DNA of 64,000 nucleotides from Caldilineaceae bacterium SB0661_bin_32 (GTDB lineage: Bacteria; Chloroflexota; Anaerolineae; Caldilineales; Caldilineaceae), in assembly GCA_009841235.1 (NCBI GenBank), contig VXMH01000071.1:62001-126000 (forward strand). Reading direction: 5' to 3'. Under the pieces are notes generated by a model, which saw only the letters and a list, made by a program, of their open reading frames with translations, was not told the DNA's origin and did not search any database. Position 1 is the stretch's first letter. Each line of letters starts with the position of its first letter. Shown here in pieces: positions 19,385 to 23,813 of this stretch. The position numbers and the translations under genes are program-made.

Positions 19385-19413
19385 TTGACGGCTTTGTGCA
19401 GGCCTGTTATAGT
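19385..19413 (+). promoter_or_regulatory. promoter of the ABC exporter operon
   Basis: TTGACG (19385-19390) and TATAGT (19408-19413) are spaced exactly 17 nt. Transcription would begin near 19420, giving a leader of about 420 nt before the first exporter start codon. The gap upstream (19184-19384) shows nothing further. Confidence 0.75.
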
Positions 19414-19481
19414 ACCCGACTGTTGGCAGCCAATAGCGGGTGGGTCTTTCTGCTCCCACCGACTGTAGATCAGGAGGACCG

Positions 19482-19559
19482 GTGAAAATGGCACGTATCA
19501 GAAATGAGTCCGCAGTCTTTTGCACTGCGAACTTCGAAGGAGGAGCAGAGCACCGGTGA
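19482..19559 (+). CDS. candidate leader peptide of the exporter operon
   Basis: A 25-codon frame with a GTG start 4 nt after AGGAGG (an ATG follows two codons later) and a TGA stop. The peptide begins MKMARIRNESAVFCTANF and has no membrane character. It lies about 60 nt after the predicted transcription start and ends about 60 nt before a strong intrinsic terminator. Translating-ribosome position could therefore influence folding downstream. Its start and stop regions also pair as DNA (ACCGGTG with CACCGGT), so ribosome occupancy would open or close that helix. It is short enough to be chance, and only position and ribosome site support it. Confidence 0.45.
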   Translation: MKMARIRNESAVFCTANFEGGAEHR

Positions 19560-19617
19560 TCCTTAAGTTGGAGGGCGGATCGGCATAAAGGCCGTCCCCT
19601 CCCAAATCGGCAAAATG

Positions 19618-19646
19618 GTCACGGTGCAGATGCCCGTGACTTTTTT
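19618..19646 (+). terminator. intrinsic terminator inside the exporter leader
   Basis: GTCACGG (19618-19624) pairs with CCGTGAC (19634-19640), followed at once by six T residues. It lies about 200 nt upstream of the exporter coding region and downstream of its promoter, so unregulated polymerase should stop here. A competing upstream fold is possible: GGAGGG (19570-19575) pairs with CCCTCC (19597-19602). Confidence 0.8.
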
Positions 19647-19841
19647 AATTGGCATTTCCAATTCAGAGTCATGGGCCCGGCCTGTGGCTCTTTTGTTTTG
19701 GGCGGGCAACTGCCCAAAAGTGGTAACGTGCAGTGTCAGTTTGCGCTCCCCCGACGAACTGGGGCTGCCGTTACCGCACCTCAATCCCCCTGCGCGCCGA
19801 ACTGGCGCGCACGCTGTGAAGGTGGCCAGGAGTTTATCAGT
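19647..19841 (+). promoter_or_regulatory. highly structured distal 5' leader of the exporter operon
   Basis: Four perfect inverted repeats follow the terminator: AATTGG/CCAATT (19647-19663), TTTTGGGC/GCCCAAAA (19696-19719), GGTAACG/CGTTACC enclosing a second helix (19722-19775), and TGCGCGCC/GGCGCGCA (19791-19811). The last lies 30 nt before the start codon. No open frame with family resemblance runs through it. I cannot match it to a known riboswitch class by eye. Confidence 0.55.
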
Positions 19842-21983
19842 ATGGCAGACAAAGTATCAGAAACTGGGAGGACCAGCCGATCCCTGCCGCACCAGGAGGC
19901 GCCAGCCTTGATGCGGCCTCTGCGCAGAATCTGGTCGGTCTTGGGCCTCCGATCCGAAGAAAAACATGAAGAGGAGACCAACGACAAAGGAATTCGGCTC
20001 GATTACGATCTGAAAGACACGTTGACGCCCAACCGCTTCGTCGGCCTTTGGCGCATGGCAACCGGCTTCCGTACCATCTATGTCATGGCCGTCGTGGCCG
20101 CAGGTTTTGCCGCGCTCAGCCGCTCCGCAGTCTTCTACCTGCTGCGCTACTTCGTCGACGATGTATTGATGGGAGCCGACAGTCAGTGGCAGATACCGTG
20201 GGTGGCGGCCGGAATCATCGCCCTGGCGCTGCTGCAAGGGTTTTTCTCATTTGGCATGGGCCGGCTGGCCGCGGAAACCGCCGAAGGAGTGACTCGCAGG
20301 CTGCGCAACTATCTCTACGACCACATCCAAAGGATGACTTTCACCTACCATGACACAATGCAGACTGGTGAACTGATTCAACGCGCCACCTCTGATGTGG
20401 ACACGCTGCGCCGTCTTTTCCAGGATCAGCTGATAGGAATCGGGCGGACGGGCCTGTTGTTCCTGGTGAATCTCATAGCGCTGGCGCTGCTGCACGGCTG
20501 GCTGGCACTGCTGTCGATTCCACTGCTGCCGGTCGTCTCCGTAGCCTCATTCTTCTTCTTCAGGCGGATGACGACCGTTTTCGAGTCCTACCAGAGTCAG
20601 GACGCCGCCGTCTCCAATCGGCTGCAGGAAAGGTTGACAGGTGTGCGCGTTGTGAAAGCTTTCGCGCGCCAGTCGTACGAGATCGACCGCTTTGAAGAGG
20701 AAAACTGGGAGAAGTACCTGCGCGGCGTGCGGATTGCAAAACTCCACACTCTGTTCTGGCCGGTCGTAGAGACCTTGACAGGGGGCCAGCTGCTGTTCGG
20801 TATGTTTATGGCTGCCAGGATGGCCCTGAGCGGTGACATCACTGTAGGCACATTTGTCGCTTTCACCGGTCTGCTCGTGGCTACAATCTGGCCCGTGCAG
20901 GGCATCGGCCGCCTGGTCGCCCATGTTTCGACCGGTCTGGTCTCGCTGAACCGGGTGCAGGAAATCATTCGCCAGGAAAGGGAAAACCTGGAAGAGGGAA
21001 ACACGCCGACGAATAAGCGTCTTCGCGGCGCCTTGCAGTTTAGAAATGTGCAGTTCGCCTATGAGTCGCCGCCTGCCGAAGAAGACGGCGCAGCAAAGAA
21101 AGGCGAAGAGGCGAAACTGGACCCGCAGGAAGCGCGGCGAAGGGCCTTTGCGGAACGGGGCTACGTCCTGCGGGATATCAACTTCGACGTCGAGCCCGGC
21201 CAGGTTGTCGGCCTGCTCGGCGCGACCGGATCGGGCAAGTCATCCCTTGTAAACCTGTTGCCGCGATTCTACGAATACAGCGGCGGCAGCATCACCTTGG
21301 ATGGCGAAGAACTGCGGGCCTATTCGCGCGGCTTCCTGCGCGGGCAGATCGGCATCGTGCAGCAGGAGCCGTTCCTGTTCTCGACCACGATCCGCAACAA
21401 TATCTCCTACGGACTGGGACGAAAAGTCTCTGATGAAGAGTTGGAGGCCGCGGCCAGGGCTGCCGCGATCCATGACGTGGTTCAGACCTTCCCCAAAGGG
21501 TACGAAACACTGGTAGGCGAACGGGGCGTGACCCTCTCCGGCGGTCAAAAGCAGCGGGTGACGATTGCCCGTACCTTGCTGAAGGACCCGGCAATTCTGC
21601 TTTTGGACGACGCCACATCCAGTGTCGATACGGAAACCGATGCCGCCATCCGCGCCGCGCTGCAGCGGCTGATGCAAGGGCGGACCACTTTCATCATCGC
21701 GCATCGCGTGCAGAGCGTTATGACGGCTGACCAGATCCTGGTGATGGAGGCCGGGCGGATTATTCAGCGGGGCAGCCATGACGAATTGGTCGCCCAACCG
21801 GGTGTCTACCGCCGGATATTCGAACTGCAGGTTCAGATCGAAGCAGACCTTGAAAGAGAAATCGCCGCTGTTGTCGAAGCGGCGGAGGAAAAGCTGGGTG
21901 GGCTTGAGAAAGCGCAGCCTTTCCCGCAGGGGTACGGCTCGCCCTCTGAACCCGAAATCCCCCATTCTGTTACAAGAGGTTGA
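19842..21983 (+). CDS. ABC exporter half-transporter A (degenerate catalytic Walker B)
   Basis: A fused membrane-ATPase half-transporter of 713 residues, type IV exporter fold. Six membrane helices lie in about residues 70-350. The ATPase has Walker A GATGSGKS, signature LSGGQKQR, Walker B ILLLDDATSSVD and H-loop IIAHR. The catalytic glutamate after Walker B is replaced by Asp (DD), as in the degenerate subunit of heterodimeric exporters. A charged insert of about 30 residues rich in Glu, Ala and Lys sits between the first strands of the ATPase domain. The ATG at 19842 has AGGAG 9 nt upstream. Upstream in-frame codons to 19671 belong to the structured leader. Gene B follows after 3 nt. Confidence 0.92.
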   Translation: MADKVSETGRTSRSLPHQEAPALMRPLRRIWSVLGLRSEEKHEEETNDKGIRLDYDLKDTLTPNRFVGLWRMATGFRTIYVMAVVAAGFAALSRSAVFYLLRYFVDDVLMGADSQWQIPWVAAGIIALALLQGFFSFGMGRLAAETAEGVTRRLRNYLYDHIQRMTFTYHDTMQTGELIQRATSDVDTLRRLFQDQLIGIGRTGLLFLVNLIALALLHGWLALLSIPLLPVVSVASFFFFRRMTTVFESYQSQDAAVSNRLQERLTGVRVVKAFARQSYEIDRFEEENWEKYLRGVRIAKLHTLFWPVVETLTGGQLLFGMFMAARMALSGDITVGTFVAFTGLLVATIWPVQGIGRLVAHVSTGLVSLNRVQEIIRQERENLEEGNTPTNKRLRGALQFRNVQFAYESPPAEEDGAAKKGEEAKLDPQEARRRAFAERGYVLRDINFDVEPGQVVGLLGATGSGKSSLVNLLPRFYEYSGGSITLDGEELRAYSRGFLRGQIGIVQQEPFLFSTTIRNNISYGLGRKVSDEELEAAARAAAIHDVVQTFPKGYETLVGERGVTLSGGQKQRVTIARTLLKDPAILLLDDATSSVDTETDAAIRAALQRLMQGRTTFIIAHRVQSVMTADQILVMEAGRIIQRGSHDELVAQPGVYRRIFELQVQIEADLEREIAAVVEAAEEKLGGLEKAQPFPQGYGSPSEPEIPHSVTRG

Positions 21984-21986
21984 CCG

Positions 21987-23813
21987 ATGTCACAACACGA
22001 ACACTTTGAAGAAGAAGAATTCGAAACGGAGTTTAACGGCCAGACCGTATTGCGCATCTTTCGTCTGGGCCTTTTGCACTGGCCGCTGATGCTCGGCTAT
22101 CTGCTGTCAGTGGTTGTTACCTCTGTGCTCGACGGCTACTTGACCCTTCTCACAAAGCGGATAGTCGATGATGGTATTGTGGCTGGCAATGCAGAGCAGC
22201 TGTGGCGGCTGGTCCTCCAATACGGTCTGGGACTCGTGCTCGTGGCCCTGGGCGTGATGGGCTTCATCTATTCGGCGGGGCGGCTGGGTGAGCGCGTGCA
22301 GTACGATCTGCGCAAAACGATGTTCGCCCGGTTGCAGGACCTGTCGCTCTCATACTACGATCGCACCCCTGTCGGGTGGCTGATGAGTCGCCTTACCTCC
22401 GACGCCAGCCGAGTAGGAGATCTGGTTTCCTGGGGCTTCATGGACTTGCTCTGGGGCGGCGTGGCCATCGCCGTCTCTCTGGGCTTCATGGCGATGATCA
22501 ACGTGCAGATGATGCTGCTCGTTGCCGCAGTCATTCCTGTGCTGATTGTGGTGGCCTTCCGCTTCAAGAAGAAGATATTGGTGGAATACCGCGACGTGCG
22601 CAAGACGAACTCCCAGATCACCGGGGCCTACAATGAAAATATAACCGGTGTGCGCGTAGTCAAATCTCTACGCCGCGAAGAGGGCAACCTCGAAGAGTTC
22701 ACCGATCTCACCCGGACCATGTACCGCGCCGGATTTCGAGCCGCATGGCTTTCAGCTCTCTTCCTGCCCGTGGTGCAGCTGATCAGCGCGATTGCGGTGT
22801 CCGGCATCGTTTTGTACAGCGGCCAGCAGTTCCAACTGGGAGGCATGACCATCGGCGGCATTCAGGCCTTCATCTTCTACATCACTCACATGCTGTTTCC
22901 AATTCAGGAAATGGCGCGCATCTACGCCGAGATGCAACAGGCCATCGCGTCGGGAGAACGCATCTTCAGTCTCGTCGACGCTGTGCCCGAGGTCCAGGAC
23001 CGCAGCGGCGCGCAGGCTCCGGATAGCTTGCGAGGCGACATCGTCTTCGAGAATGTGGACTTCCAGTACGAGGAAGAGAAGCCGGTTCTGCGCGACTTCA
23101 GCCTGCACGTTAAGCAGGGAGAGACGATCGCGCTGGTCGGGCCGACCGGCGCCGGAAAGTCGACCATCGTCAATCTGGTCTGCCGTTTCTACGAACCCTC
23201 AAAGGGCCGGATTCTCATTAACGGCAGGGACTATACCGAGTGGACCCTGCACGGAATCCATAGTCGCGTCGGCGTAGTGCTTCAGACCCCCTACCTCTTT
23301 TCCGGCTCGATCTGGGAGAATCTCCGCTACGGTCGGCTCGATGCCACCGACGACGAGGTCGTGAATGCGGCCGGGATGGCCGGAGCGCACTCCTTCATCG
23401 AGGCGTTGGAAGAAGGATACGACAGTCAAGTCGGAGAAGGGGGCGTCCTGCTGTCGGTCGGCCAGACACAGCTGTTGAGCCTGGCGCGGGCCATCCTTGC
23501 CGATCCCGATATCTTCGTGATGGACGAGGCCACCAGCTCGGTCGACACCCTCACCGAAGCGCTGGTCCAGGAAGCGATGGACGCGATCCTCGCCGATCGC
23601 ACCAGTTTCATCATCGCCCACCGCCTCTCGACCATCCGCAAGGCGGACCGGATCCTGGTGATCGAGGATGGCCGCATCGCCGAGCAGGGCACACACGCCC
23701 AGCTGATCCGCCGGCAGGGCCACTACTACGACCTCTATACAAAGCAGTTCCGCGACGAGCGTATCGGCTCCGCGCAGCCGCTCCTGCAAGCGGGGAATCC
23801 GGTCGCAGCCTGA
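21987..23813 (+). CDS. ABC exporter half-transporter B (altered signature motif)
   Basis: The partner half-transporter of 608 residues. An acidic N-terminus (EEEEFETEF) precedes six membrane helices. The ATPase has Walker A GPTGAGKS, a canonical Walker B with catalytic Glu (FVMDEATSSVD) and H-loop IIAHR. The signature is LSVGQTQ instead of LSGGQxQ. In a head-to-tail heterodimer, this weakened signature faces the Asp-bearing Walker B of subunit A. One ATP site is thus degenerate and the other (DE plus LSGGQ) is active. Substrates of this family include drugs and lipids, and nothing here identifies one. A strong terminator follows 24 nt later. Confidence 0.92.
   Translation: MSQHEHFEEEEFETEFNGQTVLRIFRLGLLHWPLMLGYLLSVVVTSVLDGYLTLLTKRIVDDGIVAGNAEQLWRLVLQYGLGLVLVALGVMGFIYSAGRLGERVQYDLRKTMFARLQDLSLSYYDRTPVGWLMSRLTSDASRVGDLVSWGFMDLLWGGVAIAVSLGFMAMINVQMMLLVAAVIPVLIVVAFRFKKKILVEYRDVRKTNSQITGAYNENITGVRVVKSLRREEGNLEEFTDLTRTMYRAGFRAAWLSALFLPVVQLISAIAVSGIVLYSGQQFQLGGMTIGGIQAFIFYITHMLFPIQEMARIYAEMQQAIASGERIFSLVDAVPEVQDRSGAQAPDSLRGDIVFENVDFQYEEEKPVLRDFSLHVKQGETIALVGPTGAGKSTIVNLVCRFYEPSKGRILINGRDYTEWTLHGIHSRVGVVLQTPYLFSGSIWENLRYGRLDATDDEVVNAAGMAGAHSFIEALEEGYDSQVGEGGVLLSVGQTQLLSLARAILADPDIFVMDEATSSVDTLTEALVQEAMDAILADRTSFIIAHRLSTIRKADRILVIEDGRIAEQGTHAQLIRRQGHYYDLYTKQFRDERIGSAQPLLQAGNPVAA

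Follow-up and report, generated by a model that had tools for sequence, protein, structure and literature searches.

Drug resistance attenuators that act through a leader peptide are known mainly from Firmicutes. In Bacillus subtilis, the BmrB/BmrCD attenuator governs a heterodimeric ABC exporter and is induced by ribosome-targeting drugs (PMC4191407), and the mef(E)/mel (msrD) drug efflux operon of streptococci is under leader-peptide-dependent transcription attenuation (PMC4335068). The ermK/ermD attenuator of Bacillus licheniformis is described as a transcriptional attenuator with two adjacent Rho-independent terminators and an Arg-Leu-Arg leader, ErmDL (PMC4335068, PMC8298421, PMC5418344). 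The Arg-Leu-Arg of ErmDL is the site of telithromycin stalling, and erythromycin stalling there is less dependent on it (PMC8298421).

Here we analyzed a window of 64,000 nucleotides in which an ABC exporter pair is preceded by a long leader (19420 to 19841; all features given below are on the forward strand). This leader is probably a ribosome-mediated transcription attenuator in which two terminators share one decision, which a drug-held ribosome would take. Judged on terminator number and leader motif, ermK is the closest known mechanism: both systems have a short leader ORF and two adjacent intrinsic terminators, and the basic-X-basic motif near the ermK leader start has a counterpart in the window, though not in several of the related genera. 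The targets differ, with an ABC exporter pair here and a 23S rRNA methylase in ermK. BmrB/BmrCD shares the heterodimeric type of ABC exporter; however, its terminator lies inside the leader ORF, whereas the first terminator here (T1) starts 57 nt past the stop codon of the leader ORF (ORF1), one terminator is described there as opposed to two here, and the leader peptide here is much shorter. The mef(E)/mel system differs in its single terminator, its other efflux proteins, and its phylum. No Chloroflexota example of such an attenuator was found in the literature searched, which excluded most subscription papers, and an exporter attenuator of the ermK/BmrB kind is apparently undescribed in this phylum.

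The host of the window is a 5.2-Mb metagenome-assembled genome. Among named bacteria, its closest relatives are Caldilineaceae of the phylum Chloroflexota, in agreement with the Chloroflexota-like host proposed in an earlier note on this DNA; the leader is present in one copy in this genome. The note had also predicted an ABC exporter pair downstream, and domain assignments and structure matches identified a heterodimeric pair resembling BmrCD and TM287/288. Exporter half 1 (19842 to 21983, 713 aa) and half 2 (21987 to 23813, 608 aa) each combine an ABC membrane domain with an ABC ATPase domain, and they share 30% identity over 605 aligned positions. Half 1 has a degenerate Walker B motif (LLLDDATS), and half 2 has a Walker B motif with Glu and the signature LSVGQ. 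One degenerate and one intact Walker B motif is the pattern of heterodimeric exporters, and the solved-structure matches include BmrCD (YheI/YheH) and TM287/288. Elsewhere in the window, a cobalamin riboswitch (RF00174, 9695 to 9887, 59 bits) was the sole Rfam match.

A DNA search of the family recovered the leader in 16/17 genomes of the genus, and the arms described below were near-invariant in the genus alignment. In two other genera (g6 and g15), the alignable part shrank to about the T1 core alone, and the order of promoter, ORF, T1, and second terminator (T2) was retained. The remaining genera were reached via the exporter ortholog, whose upstream regions brought the set to 36 leaders from 14/17 family genera, with the same layout and changed sequences. 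In group B (g3, g7, g8, g9, g12, g13, g14, and g17), the arm sequences were quite different (for example, GACGCAC / GGTGCGTCTGC / GCAGCGCACC) and the relations among them were the same. Homologous loci lacking both the small frame and the terminator, which the earlier note had named as evidence against its proposal, were not the rule: of the 16 family genera whose upstream region could be read (g5 being outside the leader count), 14 have the leader, and in g2 and g11 the exporter is present with no leader detectable in the upstream region. The g2 genomes (L078-L085) carry two paralogous exporter copies each, neither with a detectable leader.

A sigma-70-type promoter, TTGACG-N17-TATAGT (19385 to 19413; −35 at 19385 to 19390 and −10 at 19408 to 19413), was recognized from sequence with the 17-nt spacer described previously, and transcription is expected to start near 19420. 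A −35/−10 pair with 16- to 18-nt spacing lies upstream of ORF1 in 34/36 related leaders. ORF1 (19488 to 19559; stop TGA, 19557 to 19559) encodes the leader peptide MARIRNESAVFCTANFEGGAEHR behind the Shine-Dalgarno sequence AGGAGG (19472 to 19477). The earlier note had read this frame as 25 codons from GTG 19482; the frame and AGGAGG are present, and 23 codons is the better reading because ATG 19488 is kept in 15/16 genus sequences and GTG 19482 is lost in several. ORF1 is uninterrupted and free of indels in 16/16 genus sequences; for the two other frames, stops occur in 10/16 and 9/16. An ORF with a ribosome-binding site and a stop at the matching place was found in 36/36 family leaders. The conservation of frame and terminator that the earlier note had suggested looking for was found (36/36 and, for T1, 35/36 family leaders), and selection at the peptide level was not significant: a BLOSUM test for conservative amino acid substitution among the genus sequences gave 48/200 column shuffles. 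It seems from these comparisons that the frame of ORF1 matters more than its peptide, the sequence of which is weakly constrained. A small hairpin within ORF1 (AGTCCGCAGT/ACTGCGAACT, 19507 to 19533) was found as an inverted-repeat match, and comparable hairpins, judged by eye, occur in the g1, g6, and g15 relatives. A second candidate frame, ORF2 (GTG 19556 to TAA 19588, 10 codons, overlapping the ORF1 stop), is open in 15/16 genus sequences with TAA, TGA, and TAG as the stops used; it was dropped because its coding signal was not significant (24/200) and it was not retained outside the genus.

Given its composition, the leader folded with unusual stability (z = −7.4 versus 100 dinucleotide shuffles). 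Arm 1 (AGGAGGACCGGTGA, 19472 to 19485) comprises the Shine-Dalgarno and start region of ORF1 and pairs with arm 2 (AGCACCGGTGATCCT, 19549 to 19563) at −19.9 kcal/mol; arm 2 comprises the end of ORF1, including the stop codon, and has arm 1 or arm 3 as its partner. The ACCGGTG/CACCGGT pairing of the start and stop regions pointed out in the earlier note is present as part of this longer 13-nt arm pair, with 85% complementarity. Between arms 2 and 3, sequence and fold indicate a hairpin, GGAGGGCGG..CCGTCCCCTCC (19570 to 19603). The proposed intrinsic terminator with a T6 tail corresponds to T1 (GGTCACGG..CCGTGAC plus T6, 19617 to 19646, −15.1 kcal/mol), formed by arm 3 (19617 to 19627), arm 4 (19631 to 19643), and the U6 tail, and T1 lies at a similar distance in 35/36 family leaders. 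The earlier note overlooked T2 (AGAGTCATGGGCC..GGCCTGTGGCTCT plus TTTGTTTT, 19665 to 19699, −16.8 kcal/mol), which is formed by arm 5 (19665 to 19677) and arm 6 (19680 to 19699, with TTTGTTTT) and whose stem includes G-U pairs. Both terminators are present in 35/36 family leaders, and they are joined by a further alternative helix between arms 4 and 5 (−19.8 kcal/mol), represented by 12 pairs in the predicted fold. The six arms can be arranged in two exclusive states, 1:2, 3:4, and 5:6 (OFF, both terminators form) versus 2:3 and 4:5 (ON).

Farther downstream, four more perfect inverted repeats had been counted in the earlier note, and three were found to be perfect (19696/19712, 19722/19769, and 19791/19804). 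The first forms a hairpin 3' of T2 (TTTTGGGC/GCCCAAAA, 19696 to 19719) whose stem persists, despite some changes, across most of the genus. The second belongs to the stem GGTAACG..CGTTACC with an invariant CCCCC in its loop (19722 to 19775); this stem is genus specific, being conserved in 14/16 genus sequences and not recognized in other genera, and the consensus fold of those 14 sequences is supported by a few compensatory changes. The third forms a hairpin (TGCGCGCC/GGCGCGCA, 19791 to 19811) 5' of the exporter ribosome-binding site.

Each pairing was examined by permutation. Six segments were cut from each leader (S1, ORF1 start; S2, ORF1 stop; S3 and S4, the T1 halves; S5 and S6, the T2 halves), and duplex energies with the own partner were compared to those with random partners dealt among 18 divergent leaders. 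Because the ORF ends were used to place the S1 and S2 windows, the proximity of arms 1 and 2 to the start and stop codons follows in part from this design. For 1:2, 2:3, 3:4, 4:5, and 5:6 alike, 0/20000 permutations reached the observed mean, and the control pairings 1:3, 2:5, and 1:4 were not significant in the same permutation. When partners were permuted only inside group A and inside group B, so as to reduce the influence of relatedness, 39 (1:2), 270 (2:3), 0 (3:4), 2 (4:5), and 0 (5:6) of 20000 did so, and five control pairings gave no signal. Pairing of 1:2 was weak in a few leaders (L088, L016, and L017). At the level of sequence, these cognate-specific 1:2, 2:3, and 3:4 duplexes indicate mutually exclusive pairing. 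The promoter, ORF1, the arms, both terminators, and the covariation of five helices are shown by the sequence comparisons, and the comparison of 36 family leaders supports the logic of leader ORF, exclusive arms, and terminator put forward earlier. On those features that can be tested in sequence, the leader belongs with the ribosome-mediated transcription attenuators.

From this arrangement we infer that a ribosome makes the choice between the two states, that drugs hold this ribosome, and that the Arg-Ile-Arg codons of ORF1 are one holding site. With no translation, or with ORF1 freely translated to its stop, arm 2 would either pair with arm 1 or lie beneath the ribosome as it terminates. 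With arm 2 occupied, 3:4 (T1) would form and transcription would end, and RNA polymerase leaking past T1 would meet T2 (5:6). A ribosome held by a ribosome-targeting drug on the first part of ORF1 would cover arm 1 and leave arm 2 free to pair with arm 3 as arm 3 emerges, blocking T1; the freed arm 4 could then pair with arm 5, blocking T2, and the exporter pair would be transcribed. This relay to the second terminator is probable.

Predicted folds agreed with parts of this scheme. In the case of no ribosome, RNA up to T1 folded into 1:2 plus T1, and when a ribosome masked the ORF1 start, RNA up to arm 3 formed 11 pairs of 2:3. Once arm 4 was included with the ribosome on the ORF1 start, the minimum-energy fold reverted to T1. 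For RNA extending to T2, all of the folds tried had 4:5 nested in 3:6, ribosome or none. Equilibrium folding does not favor the ON state, which would therefore have to be reached cotranscriptionally and held, so that the scheme depends on kinetics; an ON state reached during transcription and then held is usual for attenuators. The 3:6/4:5 form, which ends at the T2 U-tract, might itself terminate. If so, T2 would depend on a free arm 3, in line with one decision for both terminators.

The exporter type and an Arg-X-Arg/Lys/Trp motif in the leader peptides suggest induction by ribosome-targeting antibiotics. For 31 peptides hand-assembled from leaders with a downstream terminator, the motif, picked after the peptides had been inspected, occurred ahead of the last eight residues in 12/31 genera versus 3.9 ± 1.8 for shuffled peptides (0/5000), an enrichment that is no more than suggestive. 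The basic-X-basic motif is RIR in the window and most of its genus, is RIW in g6, and is absent from several other genera. Because a ribosome held at Arg3-Ile4-Arg5 would cover the last part of arm 1 only, and because group B leaders have their basic motif further downstream, the scheme has to assume either a second ribosome behind the first or a blocked loop.

The same RNA architecture is found in amino acid attenuators, and an Arg codon lies within the N-terminal half of most leaders, as would suit attenuation by trp-leader logic with stalling from a lack of charged tRNA, most likely for Arg or Ile. However, no leader contains a run of a single residue, composition is not conserved between genera, and the target is a multidrug-type ABC exporter rather than a biosynthetic gene, making amino acid attenuation improbable. 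If ORF1 were incidental and a small molecule or protein switched the arms, as in a ligand-binding riboswitch of unknown class, one would expect the ligand pocket to be conserved above all other parts. The highly conserved blocks within the genus, including the 19722 to 19775 stem with its invariant CCCCC loop segment, would fit this reading, but across genera no block outside the arms was kept, as opposed to the ORF and ribosome-binding site in 36/36 leaders. A search with Rfam 15 gave no match in the leader at the gathering threshold and none that was meaningful at E values up to 1. The comparison with Rfam and related genomes suggested in the earlier note yielded no fitting family and five helices that covary across the family leaders. 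ORF1 and the arms explain the conserved parts except for the genus-specific stem, and a riboswitch is very improbable.

The two strong terminators preceding the gene could also be a constitutive double terminator shielding the exporter from transcription that arrives from upstream, with read-through as leakiness only. Neither the conserved promoter directed into the leader nor the cognate-specific 1:2 and 2:3 pairing would be expected of an insulator, and this reading is extremely improbable. A reading in which T1 alone is the switch, T2 is a mere back-up copy of T1, and 4:5 has no role is unlikely. In its favor, T1 and T2 are alike in group A, 4:5 specificity is weak there (871/20000), and leaders of family f28 carry one terminator only. 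In group B, by contrast, 4:5 is cognate specific (7/20000) and 3:6 is not (17057/20000). Because plain duplication of T1 would give 3:6 complementarity as well, 4:5 seems to be kept for its own sake in group B. Moreover, if a back-up terminator kept working in the ON state, it would undo the switch. The ribosome-mediated attenuator with two linked terminators remains the preferred reading.

Beyond the Caldilineaceae, exact class-wide matches to the conserved T1 core pattern were confined to this family bar one (G113), and single-mismatch matches outside it look like chance. Leaders of other families were therefore reached through the exporter, which is present in 63/222 genera of the class sample. 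The scan used a fixed window at the ORF end that misses leaders with a more distal stop (L115 and L116), and its counts are not a survey. Among 64 upstream regions from families other than Caldilineaceae, a strong terminator was counted in 45, two terminators in tandem in 21, and such a tandem together with 4:5 pairing in 20. The corresponding numbers were 97, 6, and 1 for 384 shuffles and 22, 5, and 3 for the antisense strand (n = 64). The double terminator is therefore not limited to Caldilineaceae. At most loci in family f50, the exporter is present and no leader was detectable. In family f28 (phylum sample), which has close exporters, the leaders consist of a short ORF ending in RSAPVDR or similar and a single terminator, which might be the ancestral state, although tandem terminators occur in other families also. 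Chances are about even that the leader represents a class-wide, fast-evolving, antibiotic-sensing Chloroflexota attenuator of a low-leak kind undescribed before, in which a register shift (2:3, then 4:5) relays a single ribosome decision and so disarms two serial terminators.

Dozens of diverged leaders that precede one exporter and have the same exclusive pairings form a natural data set on what such a switch requires, and the second terminator with the 4:5 helix is a directly testable low-leakage design. Such a leader further suggests that, for uncultured Caldilineaceae, encounters with ribosome-targeting compounds are frequent enough for an inducible exporter to be retained.

The leader peptides of several families end in C/P-R-S-A-P/S (L096-L099, L103, L112, L115, L116, L118, and L147), encoded by nucleotides such as CGGAGTGCGCC or CGTAGTGCGCC. 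This recurrence may be due to arm 2 in the RNA or to a motif of the peptide.
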